Under the pieces are notes generated by a model. It searched no databases. It had not been told where the DNA came from and saw only the letters and a program-made list of their open reading frames with translations. This document shows, in pieces, positions 361 to 30,784 of a stretch of 32,291 nt of DNA. Positions within the stretch are counted from its first letter, which is position 1, and each line of letters begins with the position of its first letter. The DNA lies in IMG/VR virus record IMGVR_UViG_3300025154_000294, positions 1 through 32,291 of that record. One strand, given 5' to 3'. The DNA is from a virus. A program made the translations under genes and the position numbers.

Positions 361-2949
361 TCAAATTCCACAAACTCCGCCAACACAATCCTCATTAGCC
401 TCGAAAATCACACCTTTTCGTTGCCGGGCATATTCGAAATCAACTTGAGTAAGTGGCTGCCCGCCTCTCGCACCATCCGGGTATGCGGTAATTCCCCTTA
501 ATTGGGGTAAATACTTATACAAAATTTTTCCAAAATATTCTGGATCATCGTTACCAACAGTACCAAATGCAGGGAGATTCACTGTAGAGGAAATAGAATT
601 ATCCACATACTTTTGAACAAAACTTTGAAAGGCCACTCTCCGCTCCACATCTAAAGAAAGAGAATAAGCATCCTCGATATCATTAGGATTAATTCCCTGC
701 TCTACTAATCTTTCTGCAACAAAATCCACCACGTATTGTTTTTTCCACCCATCAGGAGTTAGATACCTTCTTTGATATGCTGTAGAAAAAATAGGTTCAA
801 TTCCGGAAGTAGTCATTCCACCAGCAATTGCTGTAGAACCGTTTGGAGCAATTGCACGAACTGCTACAGGAGTATTATAAGAAAGCTGATCCGCCCATTT
901 TTTAGCGGAGAGATCGGATGTGGATTTCCAGGTAGCAAGCCATGAAGCAAGCTCCTCACTTTCACCATAAGGTTTCCCCCTAAGAACCATCCACTCATGC
1001 ATCCCCATTAAACCTAATCCAAGCCTTCTCTGTCTCCGTTGGACTTCTTTTGCCTTTGATGTAGGAACATCGGAATATTCTGTACCGACTAAAAGAAATA
1101 AAGTTGCTAAATCAGTAACCCACGACAGCTCTTCTATCGTAGAAATCCTACCGAGATTTAAGCTACCCAAGCAACATACATCTGAATCCTCAGAAGATAC
1201 AACCTCTGTGCAATTATGCGCAACAACCCCTTCAACAACTCCCCAATGATATTCTGGTAGGGTAAAGTCATATACATCCTCATTAAAAGTAGGCGTTATT
1301 GATTTAACAAACGGTGCTCCTTTAGTTAGTAATTCTGTAAGTTTCTCCACTTTGTACAATTGATAGAAATTTATTTTATTATAGAAATTTGTCCGACTTT
1401 CGAAATCAGAAATATTTAAATCATAGCTCTCTTTTACTGTATAGGTACCATTTTTAAAAACAACCTCATGGGATTTATTCGTAGTTACATAAGAAGAGAT
1501 AGAAAAACTGTCTTCTAGCAACTCTTGAAGTTGTTTTATAAACCTAATACTCGTTGCTTTATAACAAATACGCCCATAATTATTAATAGTACCATTAGCA
1601 GAAAAACACCCCCTTAAAAAAGAAGCAAGTTTATTAGTATCCCAAGTTTCAATGTTACTAGGAAACTCCCTTTCCGGAAGCTTTTTATTATCAAAACCTA
1701 GGGCAAGTAGGTCCTCTTTTATATCTTGTAAATAAATAGACCGCTTCCCCGTGGTATACTTTCTGCCCTCTAGTAGTTTCAGAATATCTGAGTCCTTAGC
1801 TCCAATATTAACCTCAACACCACGATGTTGGTCAGATTTTAATCTACCAAGATCCCCATCTCCCTGAATAAACCCTAACAAGGTATAATAACCATCTAAT
1901 ACCGGATATCGAAGATAGGGCATAAGCTGGGTTCCTTTGGCATTTCCAGCTTTAATTTCATTTCCGGAAGTATCTCGAAAAAGGTGGTCTTCTGTACAGC
2001 GTATTTTTTTATTCGTCGACAGATTTAATATCACAACCGGTTTATTTCCGGTTTTTCGGACAACCCCAAGAACTTTGTTTCCTAAGGCATCGACGAGCTC
2101 TTGTTCACCCAGTTTAAACAAGTTTTCTAGGGAAACATAGCCGTTCGGAGTAAGGATTCTCATATCTCCAGTAAAACAAGCGTTGCGGAGTGATTCTTCC
2201 CGATTACTATAGTCTACAGAAAAACCGGGTTCTCCGGTCTTTACCATCCTGTTAATTACACGCCAGTAGATTTGCTGTGCCTGGGAATACTTGGGATTAT
2301 TCTCATCCTCAAAAGCCTCGAAAAAATCTTTGGTTAAGATTACAGAGATATTGGTCATATCCATTGCTGCCGGAAAATCAAAATCCTTTTCTTTTAATTT
2401 ACGAACATCGGGACTCCAATTTTTCATCTCAATAAAATCAAGAATATCGGGATGTGCCCAGTTTAGCCCGGCCCAAATTGCCGAACGACGCTTACCACCA
2501 GACATAACTCCTCTACCAATCTCATTAATTACATTCATAAGTGGAAGGGGGCCAGAGGATTCTCCACCGCTTCTTTTAAGTTTTGCTCCCCTCTCCCGAA
2601 TCCTAGAGTAATCTATTCCAATCCCCCCTCCGGACATTAGCATAACCGTCGATTTACTCGCTAAGTCGCCCCAGCCTTCACGGGAATCTTCTGCACGTAA
2701 AAGATAGCAATTGTTTACCTGGTGGTATTCTCTCCCAGCCTGGGCTAAAAACCTTCCACCAGGAATAAATTTTCGTTCTGAAATAATGAGTTTAATTGCA
2801 TCTCGAATATCCTTACTAATAGAAGGAGCCACAGAAAAAACACTGTCTACAACCCTGCTTGCAATCTCTTCCCAAGTTTCGAAACTCCCACCTGTTTTTG
2901 GGTGGGAGTATCTTAATTGCATAATACTATTGGCGAAATCTGTCAGCAC
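361..2949 (-). CDS. nrdJ: Adenosylcobalamin-dependent (class II) ribonucleotide reductase, with intein
   Basis: Reduces ribonucleotides to deoxyribonucleotides for phage DNA synthesis. The precursor is 862 residues; removing the intein (258-579) leaves about 540. Visible signatures: NNCYLL at about 79-84 (first redox cysteine), GGGIGIDYSRIRERG at 107-121, SGGKRRSAI, the active-site N-A-C-T-E formed by N256-A257 joined to C580-T-E, VCCLGSLNLG with the partner cysteine, APNGSTAIAGG and SGIEPIFSTAY in the C-terminal half, and a terminal CVGGVC tail like the cysteine pair that re-reduces class II enzymes. The C-x4-C tail and the absence of any nrdB or nrdG in the window favour class II (B12) over classes I and III, but a distant small subunit cannot be excluded. 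The start is GTG, preceded by GAGG at a spacing of about 8. The free-standing Hint/HNH gene is immediately upstream. Confidence 0.88.
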   Translation of the reverse strand: MLTDFANSIMQLRYSHPKTGGSFETWEEIASRVVDSVFSVAPSISKDIRDAIKLIISERKFIPGGRFLAQAGREYHQVNNCYLLRAEDSREGWGDLASKSTVMLMSGGGIGIDYSRIRERGAKLKRSGGESSGPLPLMNVINEIGRGVMSGGKRRSAIWAGLNWAHPDILDFIEMKNWSPDVRKLKEKDFDFPAAMDMTNISVILTKDFFEAFEDENNPKYSQAQQIYWRVINRMVKTGEPGFSVDYSNREESLRNACFTGDMRILTPNGYVSLENLFKLGEQELVDALGNKVLGVVRKTGNKPVVILNLSTNKKIRCTEDHLFRDTSGNEIKAGNAKGTQLMPYLRYPVLDGYYTLLGFIQGDGDLGRLKSDQHRGVEVNIGAKDSDILKLLEGRKYTTGKRSIYLQDIKEDLLALGFDNKKLPEREFPSNIETWDTNKLASFLRGCFSANGTINNYGRICYKATSIRFIKQLQELLEDSFSISSYVTTNKSHEVVFKNGTYTVKESYDLNISDFESRTNFYNKINFYQLYKVEKLTELLTKGAPFVKSITPTFNEDVYDFTLPEYHWGVVEGVVAHNCTEVVSSEDSDVCCLGSLNLGRISTIEELSWVTDLATLFLLVGTEYSDVPTSKAKEVQRRQRRLGLGLMGMHEWMVLRGKPYGESEELASWLATWKSTSDLSAKKWADQLSYNTPVAVRAIAPNGSTAIAGGMTTSGIEPIFSTAYQRRYLTPDGWKKQYVVDFVAERLVEQGINPNDIEDAYSLSLDVERRVAFQSFVQKYVDNSISSTVNLPAFGTVGNDDPEYFGKILYKYLPQLRGITAYPDGARGGQPLTQVDFEYARQRKGVIFEANEDCVGGVCGI
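1213..2178 (-). mobile_element. Intein with LAGLIDADG endonuclease inside the ribonucleotide reductase
   Basis: Residues 258-579 of the reductase precursor, 322 residues. It starts with C258 (CFTGDMRILTPNG, splicing block A), has TEDHLF (block B, TxxH) at about 319, and ends VYDFTLPEYHWGVVEGVVAHN (blocks F and G) with N579, followed by C580 as the C-extein nucleophile. Two LAGLIDADG-type helices are recognisable, LLGFIQGDG near 357 and LASFLRGCFSANG near 442, so this is a full-length intein with a homing endonuclease domain. The second helix lacks the usual acidic residue (SANG), so endonuclease activity may be reduced. Splicing residues Cys1, block B His, penultimate His and terminal Asn are all present, so splicing should be intact. 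Confidence 0.92.
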
Positions 2950-2963
2950 TTATTAATCCTCAA

Positions 2964-3635
2964 CTAGCAGAAAGCAACAATGCCAGATTCATCCCCTGCT
3001 ACTGGAATGTCATCAGCAATAATAAAACAACCTGTATTATTAACAGAAAAAGTATACAGTGGGAGGTAGCCCCCCTCACTAATACTGACAACTTTGTGAT
3101 TCTTCTTAAAGAATCCTTTAGCTTTTCTAAACGGATAATGTACTCGATTATGATCAGCTATGGAAAGTAACTCAAGATTATCCAAATTATTATTAATCTC
3201 TTGGAAATCTTTGTGGTGGATAATCATTCCTTCCGGAACCTTCCCATGATAATATTCCCAGATAAGACGGGCGATATATCTATGTTGTACTCGACCATTA
3301 GCCCAACCATATATTCTCCAGTGTCCATCTCTATGTATAGAAGCAGAGAACGCCTTTACGGACATACCTGGTCTTAAATCCAATGCCTGGATTGGATCTC
3401 CACGAAAAGCTGTAAAATGGAAATCTTTCTTTACCGAAATTTTCAGTCCACTATCAAACTCAACCAATACGGTGGGAAACTCTCCCACTGCTTGTACTCC
3501 CTCAATTTCCCCAACATCCGGTAGTCTAGTTTCCGGATTCCACGAATAGACTAAAACTCCCTCTGTATTTTCGAGGGAGCTAATCTCCACCGCCTTTTTA
3601 TAGACGGTATGAATTTTTGTATTTCCTGCAATCAT
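2964..3635 (-). CDS. Free-standing HNH endonuclease embedded in a degenerate Hint (intein-like) domain
   Basis: The 223 residues fall into three parts. The N-terminal 95 or so read like the first half of a Hint domain (IAGNTKIHT like block A, VEFDSGLKISVKKDFHFTAF like block B, LDLRPGM). The middle is an HNH nuclease of the AP2/HNH phage type (RYIARLIWEYYHGKVPEG, then IIHHKDFQEINNNLDNLEL). The end resembles intein blocks F/G (LYTFSVNNTGCFIIADDIP). Residue 1 is the initiator Met rather than Cys, and the C-terminus reads PVAG...VAFC rather than HN, so protein splicing is not expected. AAAGGA precedes ATG 3635, so it is a genuine separate gene, not a frame-broken intein. It ends 14 bases before the reductase start, a typical place for a free-standing homing endonuclease. 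Confidence 0.8.
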   Translation of the reverse strand: MIAGNTKIHTVYKKAVEISSLENTEGVLVYSWNPETRLPDVGEIEGVQAVGEFPTVLVEFDSGLKISVKKDFHFTAFRGDPIQALDLRPGMSVKAFSASIHRDGHWRIYGWANGRVQHRYIARLIWEYYHGKVPEGMIIHHKDFQEINNNLDNLELLSIADHNRVHYPFRKAKGFFKKNHKVVSISEGGYLPLYTFSVNNTGCFIIADDIPVAGDESGIVAFC

Positions 3636-3646
3636 TTCATAATCCT

Positions 3647-3850
3647 TTAGTTATTATTAAAATACATATACAAAGCACGTAAGAAAATAACCATTCCATT
3701 AGTCATAGCTCCGCCAGTGACAACATCAGCAGCGGTACTAAAAGCGGTAATTGCCCCAATAGCAATTTCAGCCCGGTAGCCATCACGGCGATAAACTTCA
3801 TGCAGTACCGAAGTAGGAACGTTACTATCTTTTCTTTTCCAAAGTGTCAT
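3647..3850 (-). CDS. Hypothetical protein, 67 residues
   Basis: I do not recognise this protein. It starts at ATG 3850 after a good AGGAG box and ends 11 bases before the Hint/HNH start. The first 32 residues are charged (RRDGYRAE), followed by a small-residue-rich stretch (AIGAITAFSTAADVVTGG) and a hydrophobic C-terminus (GMVIFLRALYMYF) that could be one membrane-associated helix. It lies in the leftward operon between a zinc-binding protein and the homing nuclease. Confidence 0.6.
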   Translation of the reverse strand: MTLWKRKDSNVPTSVLHEVYRRDGYRAEIAIGAITAFSTAADVVTGGAMTNGMVIFLRALYMYFNNN

Positions 3851-9624: not shown

Positions 9625-11139
9625 TTACACACTACGCTTATTCCACTGCCGAGTAAACTCTAACCGATCATGCAATTCTTCAAGAATATCAACATCCCCT
9701 AAATTATGATCAAGAACGTACTTCAAAGAAGCGGGATCACCGTACTTTGCTTTTCTCCACGCATCCTTACTAATCGGGGTTTTACCAACAATACCCAAGT
9801 AATCACAAGCATTATCAAGCGATTTACGAGAAATTTTCAACTTGGATTTTACAGTGTAGTAAACATCCCAATGGTATAAATCACCATACCCAGGAAATGG
9901 GATATTATAATGCAAAGCTTTTGCACGCATATATGGAAAATCGAAACCTGTATTATGACATGGATAACCCTCTACAATATAAGTACCTGTAGAAGTTCCT
10001 AGACCACAAACCTCCATATTACCTACAGGAGTAATAGATACTATCTCCGTTTGCTCAACAATCGGCAGTATACCCAGCTTTTCTATGTCCAATTTAAAAA
10101 GTTTACTGGGCCTAATCTCCCCAAGAAACTTTAATTTGTCCGCTTTTGAGCCTGTAATTGTAATAACATGCTGATCCCCATGTTGCGGATCATATTTTCT
10201 AGTTGTAAATTCATAACCTAAACGTTCAAGTGCCTCACAATAACTATCATAGGTCGCCTTATTAACAACACTATTTTGGGAAGCATTTATCATGAGATTC
10301 CACTGTTCCATGTCTCTATCATCATGCTTAGCAGCTTGTGAAATACTACCCTCTCCATCAAAAAACCCAGAAACGTAACCAGCATCCTTCTCTTTTGACT
10401 CTTCCCATACGTCGAATACCTTTGTTAGGGTATTTATTTTATTATTAAAATGCAGCAATTGGCCGGTGGTTCTCCATACCCAAGTCTTGTGACGTTGTAC
10501 CAACCAGGGATGGTCCTCAGTAGCAATAATGGTTTTTCCGTTTTTAAACTTAATTTCAAAAACAGGTTTTTCAACTGGGATATTGCCCACCACGGTACTT
10601 TTTCGAATAAGCCTATTCCGCCGCCCCTCCACAGCTTCCTCATCAAAGCCTACAACCTCATCACCTGGAACAAGTTCTTCAACGTTTCTCCAAGTTAAGT
10701 CCGCCATTAGAATCTTATGTCCCGGAGTTACGCAACTATAATATCCGACAATAATATCATAATTACTAAGGGCAGCCACAAACTCTTCAACAAGACGTCG
10801 ATCCTGCGTACCATTAAACAACTCTTCTTTAGTAACTACTGCGCAATCATACCTTTTCTCACCCTTTGATTTAATTACCCAGGAAAGTACAGTACCAAAA
10901 TCCGCGTTCAGGTTATCGGTTTCAATATCAAAATAGCCGACCCGAGTGCCGGGAACCTTGTACCAGGGAATACCCGTCTTTTTCTCAAATTGTTTAGCGT
11001 CTAAACGCTCACCACCATTCTTGATCTTAATAAGACCACGAGCAAAACAACTCTTGTGATCCGGCCAACGATGACGGTGAATACACGTAACATCTCCATA
11101 AGTCTCAATTACCTTTTGAATCTCACTCTCAGAATACAT
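9625..11139 (-). CDS. RNase H-like (DnaQ/DEDD) 3'-5' exonuclease, with intein
   Basis: The precursor is 504 residues; excising the intein (136-396) leaves about 243. Exo I is VGYFDIETD at 67-75 (catalytic Asp and Glu). Exo II is split by the intein: NYDIIVGYYS joined to TGFDFPYMRAKAL, giving a GxxSxGFDFPY block like family B polymerase exonuclease domains. Exo III is HNLGDVDILEELH near the end (D within YxxxD/HxxxxD spacing). An N-terminal segment with C19, H21, H23, H28 and C31 (CIHRHRWPDHKSC) may bind a metal. No polymerase domain follows, so it is a stand-alone exonuclease, perhaps for proofreading or DNA processing. ATG 11139 has AAGGAG upstream. The N usual in exo II (GHN/GYN) is S here. 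Confidence 0.82.
   Translation of the reverse strand: MYSESEIQKVIETYGDVTCIHRHRWPDHKSCFARGLIKIKNGGERLDAKQFEKKTGIPWYKVPGTRVGYFDIETDNLNADFGTVLSWVIKSKGEKRYDCAVVTKEELFNGTQDRRLVEEFVAALSNYDIIVGYYSCVTPGHKILMADLTWRNVEELVPGDEVVGFDEEAVEGRRNRLIRKSTVVGNIPVEKPVFEIKFKNGKTIIATEDHPWLVQRHKTWVWRTTGQLLHFNNKINTLTKVFDVWEESKEKDAGYVSGFFDGEGSISQAAKHDDRDMEQWNLMINASQNSVVNKATYDSYCEALERLGYEFTTRKYDPQHGDQHVITITGSKADKLKFLGEIRPSKLFKLDIEKLGILPIVEQTEIVSITPVGNMEVCGLGTSTGTYIVEGYPCHNTGFDFPYMRAKALHYNIPFPGYGDLYHWDVYYTVKSKLKISRKSLDNACDYLGIVGKTPISKDAWRKAKYGDPASLKYVLDHNLGDVDILEELHDRLEFTRQWNKRSV
9952..10734 (-). mobile_element. Intein inside the 3'-5' exonuclease
   Basis: Residues 136-396, 261 residues. Starts CVTPGHKILMADLTW (block A), TEDHPWL (block B TxxH), one clear LAGLIDADG-type helix VSGFFDGEGSI at 256-266, and ends MEVCGLGTSTGTYIVEGYPCHN (blocks F/G). 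C-extein +1 is Thr397. Only one LAGLIDADG motif is obvious, so the endonuclease domain is compact or degenerate. Cys1, block B His and His-Asn are present, so splicing should work. Confidence 0.9.
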
Positions 11140-25923: not shown

Positions 25924-26825
25924 AAAAGACAGTTATTGGTATTGTTACTTTTGGAAATTTAGAGTTCACACAGTTAGCGGTACAATCAGTTTGGGATACT
26001 GTAAAATCTCCGTATAAATTGTGTATTATTGTAGGGAAACCTGGGGATGGTGATACCGCTGGTTGGTGTGCTCGAAATGATATTCCTCATATTGTACACA
26101 ATCAGAACTACGGGTTCCCCTATTCTTTAAATGATCTTTATGATTTTACTTGGGAACACTGGAAATATGATAATCTAGTAACAATGGGAAACGACGTCAT
26201 TGCTTACCCATATGCAATTGATTCCCTAATATCTGTAGAGGAGAAGATAGGCTATGATTGGTTATGTTCACAAGAATATAATGTCAAAGCTTTAGTAAAA
26301 GATTTCCCTGAAGTAAGACCTCTTTTTAATGGGGAAGATCTAAAATTTGCTTCGTGGAAAGAAAAGCCGTGGGAGCGATTTACAGGTTGGAGTGATCAAG
26401 TCGGATATGATGTTGGAGGGGGAATGAGTGATACACATAACTTAGCGTTATATACTCGATCTTTCTTCGATCAGGTGGGTTATATTGACGTAAATCACTA
26501 CCCGGCTTATTTTGAAGACAACGATTTAGCACGACGGGCAATCCTTGCTGGAACCAAATCTGCAAAAGTTACAAATTCTTATTACTTTCATTTTTGGAGT
26601 AGAACTATCAAGCAAGGAAGTGGTGGATCTAATAATAAATTCTTCAACCTAAACCGGAATTACTATATCCGTAAATGGGGAGGAGATTTTATGAAGGAAA
26701 GATTCTCAATTCCCTTTAATGGGGCTGAAACGGAGATTGGTGGGGTTCATTTACCAAACTCATATAAAATTGATAGTCGAGAAGGGGAAGATAAAATCGT
26801 TGCTTATTGGAGAAATAAAGCCTAA
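25920..26825 (+). CDS. Glycosyltransferase family 2-like protein
   Basis: 301 residues from ATG 25920 (ATGA overlap with the previous stop); the longer frame from 25866 is unlikely. TVIGIVTFGNLEFTQLAVQSVWDTV is the GT-A opening, HNQNYGFPYSLNDLYDF with NLVTMGNDVIAYPYAIDSL resembles the N.G...A.N.G and D-x-D region (here GNDV), and YFEDNDLARRAILAGTK the late ED acceptor-site motif. It ends by overlapping the terminase start as TAATG. It probably transfers a nucleotide sugar to a virion or other acceptor. Confidence 0.78.
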   Translation: MKKTVIGIVTFGNLEFTQLAVQSVWDTVKSPYKLCIIVGKPGDGDTAGWCARNDIPHIVHNQNYGFPYSLNDLYDFTWEHWKYDNLVTMGNDVIAYPYAIDSLISVEEKIGYDWLCSQEYNVKALVKDFPEVRPLFNGEDLKFASWKEKPWERFTGWSDQVGYDVGGGMSDTHNLALYTRSFFDQVGYIDVNHYPAYFEDNDLARRAILAGTKSAKVTNSYYFHFWSRTIKQGSGGSNNKFFNLNRNYYIRKWGGDFMKERFSIPFNGAETEIGGVHLPNSYKIDSREGEDKIVAYWRNKA

Positions 26826-29800
26826 TGGCAATTAAGGAACTAGTATCTCAAGAAGATTTGGTATTCTATGAGATTATGAAAAACCCGGTCTTGTTTGGTG
26901 AATTTGTATATAACATGGACCGGTTAGATAGAGAAGAGAAGTTTGCTTTTACTGTATACCAAAAGGAATTTCTTCTTGATGTTAGTAACTACCAATCATT
27001 AGCCTGTGGTCGAGCAGTTGGAAAAACTCTAGGGCTGTCAATACTAATGATTTGGTACCTTGTATTTAATGTATTTCCAAATGATTATATCTTATATACA
27101 GTTCCTTCTAAAGTTCATCTGGAACCTGTGTTTACTAATCTTATTCGGTTATTCAGAAGCAATTCTTTTCTAAAACAATTCATTGAACCTCGGGGTGGTA
27201 TTAACGGGTCAGATTATACAGTCAAGCTGCTGAATCAAGCTACCCTTCTATGCCGTATTGCAGGACAAAGTGGAACCGGTGCTAATGTAATTGGTTTACA
27301 TACTCCGGTTATACTTTTGGACGAGTGTATTGTAGCTGGACAGGGGGTAGCCTGTCCACGGGGTAGCAGGAAAATAGCTGATCTTGCGGTTGGCGATAAA
27401 ATTCTTTCCTGGAATGGGGAAGATATCGAGGAAGACAGTGTGATTTCAGTTCAAAAAGTAAAAAGAAACCAGCGAGTTTTAGAAATTGAAACCAACTCTG
27501 GAAAAATTAAAGTAGGTGAAAACCACCGGTTTTATACAGATAGTGGGTATGTTGAAGCCGGAACACTAAATGTTGGGGACACACTTTATTCTATTGAACC
27601 CCCTAAGCACGGTGCTTGGACCAACAGTGAAATTTCCTATGTAAAAAATGCTACATCTAATGGTGTCCCTGTTTACGAAATTGCTAAAACTCTCCACCGG
27701 ACCGCGCAATCTATTTTTAGAAAGATCGCCCGTCTGGGTACTTCTGTTCGTGGTTCCTTCGATGATGTTCCATTAACATCTGAACAATATCAGATTATTG
27801 CTGGATCATTATTGGGAGATGGTTCTGCTGGTATAGAAATCAATAGGGCTAGATACCACACAAATCATAGCCTAAAACAAAAAGAATATGTGGATTGGTT
27901 ACGATCTAAGCTAGGTAGACTTGTCAGGGCAGAGCCTAGAATCTCAAAAAACGGTGGTTGGGGAGAATATAATTATTCCTTTGGAACACTCGGCCACCCG
28001 GAAATTTTAGCTTTGGCAGAGGAGTTATATATCAATGGAAAGAAAACCGTAACCAGGTCCTATCTTGATAGGTTAGACTCACTAGGTTTAGCTGTTTGGT
28101 TTATGGATGATGGCTCAACCAGTGGGATGTGGTCAACGCATTCTTTCTCCGAAGAAGAGAATAAACTCATTCAAGAATATTTATTAGAGAAGTGGGGCAT
28201 TGAGTCCACTGTTTACTTTGTTTCAGATAAAAACCTGTATTGTATTCTAGTAAAGAATTCCTCACTGAAAGTTCTCAGGAAAATTATAACTCCTTATATT
28301 CCAGAATGTATGCAATACAAGGTAGGGAACGGGACTTATAATAATACTATTCCGGAAATAGAAGTAGTAAAAAATGCCGAGAAAAAAGAAACCCTTCTCC
28401 CGAGAAAGATCCTCAGTATTCGTGTTATAAAAAGAACAAAAGCGGGGTATCTTTATACACTTGAGGTAGAGAAAAACCACAACTATTTTGTCGGTGGAAT
28501 TCTTACTAAAAACAGTGGTTATTACCCCCACAGAACTTTCCAAGAATTACAGCCCTCCCTAAATACATTTACTCCTGGATTTAAACTTCTAACCTCAGGC
28601 GTACCTACTGGCCTACGAGAAGGAAATGTTCTTTACCATACCGATCAAGAAAACTCAAGCTACTCTAAGCACAGGGTTTCCGCCCTTCAAAATCCACGTT
28701 TTTCTGAAGAAGATAAACAACGTGCTCTTGAGCAGTATGGTGGGGAGGATTCTGAAGATTACATTCACTTTGTGTGTTTTACCCCGGAAACTCCTATTAT
28801 TACTAGTTCTGGTATTAAGCCAATATCAAAAGTGGCTAGTGGTGATATCGTATTAACTCATACAGGAAACTGGAAGAAAGTTACAAATACATTTTCTAGG
28901 GAATATTCTGGCAAGATTCTGGGGATTAAGACGGAACGTTATTATAATCCTATTTGGTGTACCCCAGAGCACCCGGTTTATGCAAAGAGATTAAAAAAAG
29001 TTTCTTGGAAAGGAAATTCAGAGTGTGCTTTATGGAAAGGAAACATACGACGGGTTAGAGATAACCATAAAAATGCTGTAAGTCTTTTGCCTGAATTTGT
29101 TTTGGCAAGTAAATTAGAACGACTAGACCGGGTTTCTTTTCCCAAAGCAACTTTTACAAAAAAGCTACCAGCTAGAATTGATCTTAAGGATCTGGGTACT
29201 GTGAGAGGCGATTATGTCTACACAAAGGTAAACGCACGTTTTGGAAAATCCCGTTTGGTTTCTAAAACACCTAGATATTTGGAAGTTACAGATGATTTTC
29301 TTTTTTTCATTGGTATTTTTATTGCCGAGGGTGGGAATTCTCTGGCCCGCGGTCAATGTTCTATCTCATTAAATGTTAATGAGATAAACATAAAAAATAA
29401 AGTTATCGCCTATTTAAAAAGTATAGGACAAAACCACTGGGTAACCGTTGTAAACAATAGTTTGCAGGTGTGTTTCGGTTCCAGAACCCTATCAAACTTT
29501 TTGTCTAAGTTTGTTGGGTGTGGTGCAGAAAATAAACATATTCCGGCAGAGTTTTTAGGGGTGGATTCAAGAGAGTTACTTCCCCTTTTAGATGGTTTAT
29601 TTTCAGGGGACGGGTCTTGCAGAGTAAAAAAGCACAGATTTGAAGCCTCCTATACTACTATATCAAAGAGACTCGCCGATGATATTTTGTTTATTTTATA
29701 CGGACTCGGTGTAAGAGCAGAGCTTTTAAAGAAAATCAACACAGATTATAAATATATCTGTGCAAATAAGAAACCATCTTTGGGAAGACCTGTTTATACC

Positions 29801-30784
29801 CTACGTCTGGGTCATACAGATATCGCAGCGATTTATACTAATAAAGTTAGTATAGAGAATACATTCGATGACGGTTCTTTAGCGATTCCGATCAAAAAGA
29901 TTGGTGAAGCTGAATATACTGGTTTAGTTTATAACCTAGAAGTAGAGGACGATAATTCTTATGTGACTTGTGGATTTTCGGCACATAACTGTGGGTTGCA
30001 TGGAAAACCTGTATTTTCTCTCTTTGATCGTGGAGCTTTTGAGATTATTAATAACCCGGTTTATAAATTGGTTATTAATGGGTGGGAAATTTCTGAGAAC
30101 ATTGATGATTATATCACCCGTGCAAACTTAATCCCACAAATCCCAGACAAGTCTTATAAATGCATTATAGGGATTGACTTAGGTTATACGGAACCAACAG
30201 CAATTATTATTCTATATCAAGATGGCTACGGAAGAATTAAATTCCACGCTCGTATTACCCTAAATAAAGTATCCTACACCATTCAGGATCGGTTTATTGA
30301 CCTTCTTGATTCTAAGTTTAAACCCTATATTATTGGTATAGATGAGGGTGGTGTTGGTAAGCCGGTTGTCCAAAGATTGAAAGAATCCTTAGACTATGCC
30401 CATAAGGATTATCATAAAAGACTGATACCGATCAATTTCTCTACTGCTATTGTTATGGGAACAAATTCAGATGGTGAGGAGATTAAAACTAAAACAAAAC
30501 CCCTAGCTGTTTCAGTATTACAAGAATATGCTAATAACCATAAAGTTGTATTCTCTAGTACAGATTTTGAAATGGTTACAGAACTTGAAAGAATGACTTA
30601 TTCTAAAACAGTAACTGGGGAAATTGTTTACAAAACGCTCACCGAGCGAGGAGGTAAAAAAGGCGAAGACCACTTCACAGCAGCCCTCCTATGTGCGATA
30701 CTAGCCTACTATCTAGTCCATGAAACTATGGACTTCACAAAAAAGCGACAGAAGCTGATGAAAAGCTCTTGGTTCGCAGGATAA
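26825..30784 (+). CDS. terL: Terminase large subunit interrupted by two inteins
   Basis: DNA-packaging motor and nuclease. The precursor is 1319 residues; excising inteins 168-563 (396) and 651-1055 (405) leaves about 518, a normal terminase size. ATPase: CGRAVGKTLGLS at 61-72 (Walker A) and VILLDE at 162-167 (Walker B with catalytic Glu), extein continuing SGYYPHRTFQEL. LLTSGVPTGLREG is the coupling motif. Nuclease: IIGIDLGYTEPTAII (first Asp), IIGIDEGGVGKPVVQRL (second Asp) and GEDHFTAALLCAI (third acidic/His). ATG 26825 overlaps the glycosyltransferase stop. Function requires both splicing events. Confidence 0.95.
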   Translation: MAIKELVSQEDLVFYEIMKNPVLFGEFVYNMDRLDREEKFAFTVYQKEFLLDVSNYQSLACGRAVGKTLGLSILMIWYLVFNVFPNDYILYTVPSKVHLEPVFTNLIRLFRSNSFLKQFIEPRGGINGSDYTVKLLNQATLLCRIAGQSGTGANVIGLHTPVILLDECIVAGQGVACPRGSRKIADLAVGDKILSWNGEDIEEDSVISVQKVKRNQRVLEIETNSGKIKVGENHRFYTDSGYVEAGTLNVGDTLYSIEPPKHGAWTNSEISYVKNATSNGVPVYEIAKTLHRTAQSIFRKIARLGTSVRGSFDDVPLTSEQYQIIAGSLLGDGSAGIEINRARYHTNHSLKQKEYVDWLRSKLGRLVRAEPRISKNGGWGEYNYSFGTLGHPEILALAEELYINGKKTVTRSYLDRLDSLGLAVWFMDDGSTSGMWSTHSFSEEENKLIQEYLLEKWGIESTVYFVSDKNLYCILVKNSSLKVLRKIITPYIPECMQYKVGNGTYNNTIPEIEVVKNAEKKETLLPRKILSIRVIKRTKAGYLYTLEVEKNHNYFVGGILTKNSGYYPHRTFQELQPSLNTFTPGFKLLTSGVPTGLREGNVLYHTDQENSSYSKHRVSALQNPRFSEEDKQRALEQYGGEDSEDYIHFVCFTPETPIITSSGIKPISKVASGDIVLTHTGNWKKVTNTFSREYSGKILGIKTERYYNPIWCTPEHPVYAKRLKKVSWKGNSECALWKGNIRRVRDNHKNAVSLLPEFVLASKLERLDRVSFPKATFTKKLPARIDLKDLGTVRGDYVYTKVNARFGKSRLVSKTPRYLEVTDDFLFFIGIFIAEGGNSLARGQCSISLNVNEINIKNKVIAYLKSIGQNHWVTVVNNSLQVCFGSRTLSNFLSKFVGCGAENKHIPAEFLGVDSRELLPLLDGLFSGDGSCRVKKHRFEASYTTISKRLADDILFILYGLGVRAELLKKINTDYKYICANKKPSLGRPVYTLRLGHTDIAAIYTNKVSIENTFDDGSLAIPIKKIGEAEYTGLVYNLEVEDDNSYVTCGFSAHNCGLHGKPVFSLFDRGAFEIINNPVYKLVINGWEISENIDDYITRANLIPQIPDKSYKCIIGIDLGYTEPTAIIILYQDGYGRIKFHARITLNKVSYTIQDRFIDLLDSKFKPYIIGIDEGGVGKPVVQRLKESLDYAHKDYHKRLIPINFSTAIVMGTNSDGEEIKTKTKPLAVSVLQEYANNHKVVFSSTDFEMVTELERMTYSKTVTGEIVYKTLTERGGKKGEDHFTAALLCAILAYYLVHETMDFTKKRQKLMKSSWFAG
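27326..28513 (+). mobile_element. Terminase intein 1, at the Walker B/catalytic Glu junction
   Basis: Residues 168-563, 396 residues. Starts C168 (CIVAGQGVACPRG...), block B region GENHRFYTDSG, LAGLIDADG-type helices IIAGSLLGDGSA near 324 and LAVWFMDDGST near 422, and ends YTLEVEKNHNYFVGGILTKN with N563; +1 is Ser564. The penultimate residue is Lys, not His, a tolerated variant in some inteins. The intein begins immediately after Asp-Glu of Walker B. Confidence 0.93.
28775..29989 (+). mobile_element. Terminase intein 2, between ATPase and nuclease domains
   Basis: Residues 651-1055, 405 residues. Starts C651 (CFTPETPIITSSG), block B CTPEHPVYA, LAGLIDADG-type helices FFIGIFIAEGG near 827 and LLDGLFSGDGS near 921, and ends VYNLEVEDDNSYVTCGFSAHN with H1054-N1055; +1 is Cys1056. 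All splicing residues and both endonuclease helices are present, so it should splice and may be mobile. Confidence 0.94.

Follow-up and report, generated by a model that had tools for sequence, protein, structure and literature searches.

The gene that we call P0001 raises two questions: did an intein here become an independent gene with its nuclease kept, or does the gene belong to a Hint-HNH family of its own, and what might its nuclease target? P0001 lies in a window of 32,291 bases, which is the whole of a virus record, as part of a tightly packed row of genes on the minus strand. This row consists of a 67-aa ORF (3647–3850), P0001 itself (2964–3635, a 223-aa ORF with its ATG at 3633–3635 and its TAG at 2964–2966), and nrdJ (361–2949, GTG start), which encodes a B12-dependent ribonucleotide reductase (RNR), and the gaps between the three are 11 and 14 nt. 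A Shine-Dalgarno-like AGGA (3643–3646, minus strand) can be read from the sequence 7 nt 5′ of the P0001 ATG. Upstream of this ATG the frame meets an in-frame stop and is open for five codons only, so there is no N-extein, and given its own ATG and a stop directly after its C-terminus, P0001 does not lie in frame within a host protein. The first-pass annotation had described a free-standing gene adjoining nrdJ, and the layout bears this out, with the P0001 stop 14 nt ahead of the nrdJ GTG. The 67-aa ORF directly upstream of P0001 has no matches in Pfam, PHROGs, or NCBIfam.

The same annotation had seen two Hint halves around an HNH domain, a reading that hinged on Hint similarity in the flanks. 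For the nuclease, Pfam places HNH_3 at residues 120–164 (E = 9.9e-14), within a region that we delimit at aa 98–178 (3102–3344, minus strand) from the Pfam match, an alignment with I-HmuI, and conservation. The His-Asn-His of the HNH motif, H141 (3213–3215), N153 (3177–3179), and H162 (3150–3152), is unchanged in P0001 both in the I-HmuI alignment and by conservation among relatives, and H141 and N153 match the His and Asn that we take to be catalytic in I-HmuI. For the Hint halves (aa 1–97 at 3345–3635 and aa 179–223 at 2967–3101, both minus strand), profile searches agreed with the annotation in part: no Hint model was found in P0001 by Pfam or PHROGs, both of which give HNH only, but Hint similarity emerged with NF052663 and with a purpose-built profile. 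NF052663 (NCBIfam, intein-containing RtcB-related) matches residues 3–159 (E = 2.7e-6), and in the NCBIfam alignment residue 3 of P0001 falls at model position 80 and Cys1 of the nrdJ intein described below at position 78, so that Met1 of P0001 occupies the Cys1 position. The purpose-built Hint-HNH profile was made from HNH inteins with the relatives L267 and L172 left out; the isolated N-flank (the first 97 residues) matches it at E = 3e-5 and beats all 1000 shuffles (500 of the N-flank and 500 of the C-flank). An AlphaFold2 model of P0001 (pLDDT 85.6, pTM 0.80, from an alignment of ten sequences) was compared by Foldseek. The matches are solved inteins that align with it from end to end, among them the split intein NrdJ-1 (8ubs) and, with a TM of 0.81 by target length, NpuDnaB (4o1r). 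As modelled, P0001 is a Hint fold, with N and C halves forming the horseshoe. We regard the Hint-HNH observation as confirmed: it is more than chance, and it had been read correctly.

The origin of this arrangement is indicated by its relatives. The seven nearest full-length ones (L267, L317, L319, L324, L172, L322, and L323; 35–48% identity) are without exception in-frame inteins of phage RNRs, inserted at NP|CGE, immediately ahead of the cysteine conserved in the RNR N-x-C-x-E motif. L267 is 48% identical to P0001 over residues 2–221 (E = 1e-66), and L172 is 41% identical (E = 1e-49). Searches with P0001 alone gave no full-length relative in GenBank phages, plasmids, or viral contigs, returning weak HNH-only matches or nothing; L317, L319, L324, L322, and L323 were reached with a Hint-N query, and L172 and L267 by step-wise alignments. 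The first HNH alignment (A1) returned mostly ordinary HNH homing endonucleases, yet it was through this alignment that genuine HNH inteins were first reached. Sequences of T7-like, Staphylococcus, and Lactococcus 936 phages that seemed to match Hint were discarded, as the ORFs, read or annotated, are HNH only. The curated cut-off of Pfam Intein_splicing (35.8 bits) is reached by L267 (40.6) and L317 (49.9), but not by P0001. This RNR position also holds HNH inteins that are more distantly related, in phages of Vibrio, Salmonella, and Dickeya and in cyanobacterial phages. A tree of 21 HNH inteins places P0001 within the RNR clade (97/96) and groups it with L267 and L172 at 100/100, and separate trees of Hint-N and HNH both recover this trio, which indicates that the parts share one history. 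Judged by homology and trees, P0001 is a former RNR HNH intein that was inherited as one unit of Hint-N, HNH, and Hint-C. The phage of L267 is a distant relative of the window’s phage, since their DNA polymerases are 43% identical. A Hint-HNH family of its own, the other option first raised, did not hold up, given that each of the seven full-length relatives found is an ordinary RNR intein and P0001 is the sole free-standing copy found, a count that covers one viral and one genome collection searched by pattern scans.

P0001 covers exactly the intein, with residue 1 in the Cys1 column and its last residue in the column of the terminal Asn. All five splicing residues examined have been lost, each in a column that is invariant across the seven RNR inteins: C1M (3633–3635), T69K (3429–3431), and H72F (3420–3422) in the N-half, and H202G (3030–3032) and N223C (2967–2969) in the C-half, all on the minus strand. 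Where a functional intein has a nucleophile at residue 1 (Cys/Ser, or Ala), P0001 has Met, and in place of the block B TxxH and the terminal Asn it has K69xxF72 and Cys. Replacement of Cys1 by the start Met, as proposed at the outset, is seen with NF052663 and in the alignment of relatives alike. Of the terminal His-Asn proposed to be lost, the Asn is now Cys (SGIVAFC* in P0001 vs. SGVVSAN|C in L317); the ending of the relatives themselves is S-A-N, or S-C-N in one case, and not H-N. An alternative C-terminal end for P0001, PVAG, came from a first MAFFT alignment and was dropped, as closer relatives (PVAGDFSGVVSAN) fix the end as SGIVAFC. Across invariant columns more broadly, P0001 breaks 24 of 66, and each true intein, by leave-one-out, 0–9 of 66–75.

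The neighbouring nrdJ had been taken to be without an intein, and this proved incorrect. Its aa 258–579 (nt 1213–2178, minus strand) are a LAGLIDADG intein at an RNA|C-TEV site, with canonical Cys1 (CFTGD) and HN|C (AHN|C) ends. It is unrelated to the HNH inteins and uses their exact codon boundary, before the Cys of RNA|C-TEV, and the nrdJ N-extein (2179–2949, minus strand) puts 785 nt between this insertion site and the ex-intein gene. The nrdJ intein is most closely related to RNR inteins from Nodularia phages (43%) and from L291 (41%). A recent death of this intein, considered for its second motif (SANG), was rejected as the N is conserved in the Nodularia phages and L291, and the resident intein may be independently mobile. 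In the nrdJ ORFs of L032, L036, L069, and L073, this site likewise carries LAGLIDADG inteins; these start RNA|P-I/V..., have Pro for Cys1 and a Cys in block F, and resemble class 3 inteins. A comparison with related phages for presence and absence, as the first-pass annotation had suggested, gave absence on both counts: in the closest nrdJ relatives (L006–L011, of which L011 is a short contig; 64–68% over the N-extein), neither an nrdJ intein nor an upstream Hint-HNH gene was found, and no full-length P0001 match was found among 50 related contigs.

From these sequences, nrdJ is a plausible target of P0001. The DNA around the insertion site is identical at 14 of 24 positions between the window’s nrdJ and L267, so recognition of the window’s own nrdJ by P0001 is uncertain. 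On the other hand, P0001 might be a free-standing homing endonuclease with a target other than nrdJ, such as the neighbouring intergenic region or an unrelated gene, and its adjacency to nrdJ might be historical. This would fit the modest conservation of the insertion-site DNA, and for free-standing phage endonucleases the cleavage site is often hundreds to thousands of bases away from the gene that encodes the enzyme (PMC2988022). We consider such a target rather unlikely, given that the ancestry of P0001 is specific to the RNR cysteine site and that the gene adjoins an RNR gene.

A second alternative is that P0001 is a decaying relic, in which an RNR intein copy landed between genes and lost splicing, and in which the frame and the HNH are merely not yet erased. 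That a single copy was found and that all of the splicing residues are already lost would suit a relic, and a neutral relic would be expected to lose Hint and HNH alike. The end branch of P0001 for Hint is 2.06 vs. a median of 0.34, which amounts to a rate about sixfold that of the median relative, and for HNH it is 0.45 vs. a median of 0.70. In three-taxon tests, there were 37 vs. 8 changes in Hint (p = 1.5e-5) and 13 vs. 7 in HNH (p = 0.26). The direct contrast of lineage-specific changes between Hint and HNH is not significant (Fisher, p = 0.20), and the case for unequal rates rests on the branch lengths and the separate three-taxon tests. With about two changes per column in Hint since divergence, an HNH below the family median, and a 223-codon frame that is intact with a start and a ribosome site, we find a relic improbable. 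The pattern points to a loss of constraint on splicing and a retained constraint on the nuclease, and since the splicing residues are lost, Hint is fast, and HNH is not accelerated, P0001 is best explained as a splicing-dead ex-RNR intein with a nuclease that selection still maintains. The initial proposal of an intein turned independent gene with its HNH kept is thus supported by homology, by the residue losses, and by the rates. A domesticated, non-homing function, as a nuclease of phage DNA metabolism or as a regulator of nrdJ or of its intein’s splicing, has a precedent in the domesticated intein-derived nuclease HO (PMC7282813) and would suit the apparent operon with nrdJ, but it is very improbable because the gene is absent from the closest nrdJ relatives and the searched contigs, and so is not a conserved phage function.

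We think it quite probable that P0001 is an ex-RNR intein, cut out at the intein borders, that has a constrained nuclease and acts as a free-standing, nrdJ-cutting homing endonuclease. As the sequence shows, an RNR HNH intein was excised exactly at its borders, with its own ATG replacing the Cys1 codon and the exteins gone. P0001 would be expressed as a soluble Hint-HNH protein, in which the Hint shell would now serve only as a scaffold or a DNA-binding surface. In co-infecting phages, the protein would cut nrdJ alleles at the ancestral site or close to it, and the resident nrdJ would be shielded by a different intein, of the LAGLIDADG type, that interrupts the target site. With the resident phage as the template for repair, nrdJ, its intein, and the adjoining endonuclease gene, 785 nt from the intein, would be co-converted, which could allow a joint spread of intein and ex-intein (collaborative or trans homing). 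P0001 is probably selfish, a homing nuclease whose origin would parallel the one proposed for the yeast HO endonuclease, and it perhaps helps the resident LAGLIDADG intein to spread. That two unrelated selfish elements of one RNR codon cooperate, with the LAGLIDADG intein shielding the site and the HNH cut of the neighbouring ex-intein spreading both, is a more tentative suggestion, which we hold to be possible rather than probable.

Among known systems, the RNR HNH inteins at N-P-C-G-E are like P0001 in their Hint-HNH-Hint layout, length, and full-length homology (35–48%). They differ in that they lie in frame in RNR, with Cys1, TxxH, and the terminal Asn preserved, whereas P0001 is free-standing, has no exteins, and has lost all of these residues. 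The yeast HO and WHO genes are intein-derived stand-alone genes that have no exteins and keep a splicing domain that does not splice, and WHO genes adjoin their target gene FBA1 (PMC7282813). P0001 shares with them an intein ancestry and the lack of exteins and of splicing residues. However, HO and WHO are eukaryotic, have a LAGLIDADG nuclease and an extra zinc finger, and derive from the VMA1 intein (PMC7282813). P0001 is not a member of that family, as it has an HNH nuclease and, by Pfam, no zinc finger. A repeat like the duplicated target fragment of WHO was not seen.

Cooperation between a free-standing nuclease and a splicing element has been described for introns. The free-standing HNH enzyme MobE of T4 supports trans homing of the defunct I-TevIII intron in nrdB (PMC2988022), and collaborative homing has been documented for F-CphI beside psbA (PMC10448857). 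Both resemble the present locus in that a splicing element occupies the insertion site of a gene and a free-standing endonuclease is encoded next to that gene (PMC2988022, PMC10448857). They differ in that their splicing element is a group I intron and no Hint domain is described for their nuclease, while in the case of P0001 the element is an intein and the cleavage is putative. In Lactococcus phage 949, hypothetical proteins between RNR genes have intein traces like the Pho and Chy RIR1 inteins (PMC3653736); unlike for P0001, the part of that account available to us gives traces only, with no residue-level or evolutionary analysis (PMC3653736). In the literature surveyed, the intein-derived stand-alone homing elements described are yeast HO and WHO, and P0001 would be a phage case with an HNH nuclease. 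With intact same-site RNR inteins as close relatives and a rise in rate in Hint only, P0001 makes the transition from intein to gene directly testable. The P0001-nrdJ pair is a possible intein version of collaborative homing, and if the cooperation of the two elements is true, it would represent an intein that homes collaboratively as well as a phage equivalent of how HO and WHO arose.

Further inteins were noted in the window and in other phages. The gene for the terminase large subunit (26825–30784) seemingly has two (LAGLIDADG_2 and LAGLIDADG_3), the first of them in the LLDE Walker-B region, and an RNase H-like exonuclease gene (9625–11139) is split by an intein that matches LAGLIDADG weakly, giving, with nrdJ, at least four inteins in 32 kb. 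In the nrdA of Vibrio phage SUMAE (L282, 2501–3190), an RNR HNH intein has met the opposite fate, with its splicing motifs intact and its HNH motif decayed. In Lactobacillus phage CL2 (L284, 1670–2590), a terminase ORF enters Hint-N and then stops, and a separate HNH ORF comes next, an arrangement that may reflect a broken intein, a fractured gene, or a sequencing frameshift.
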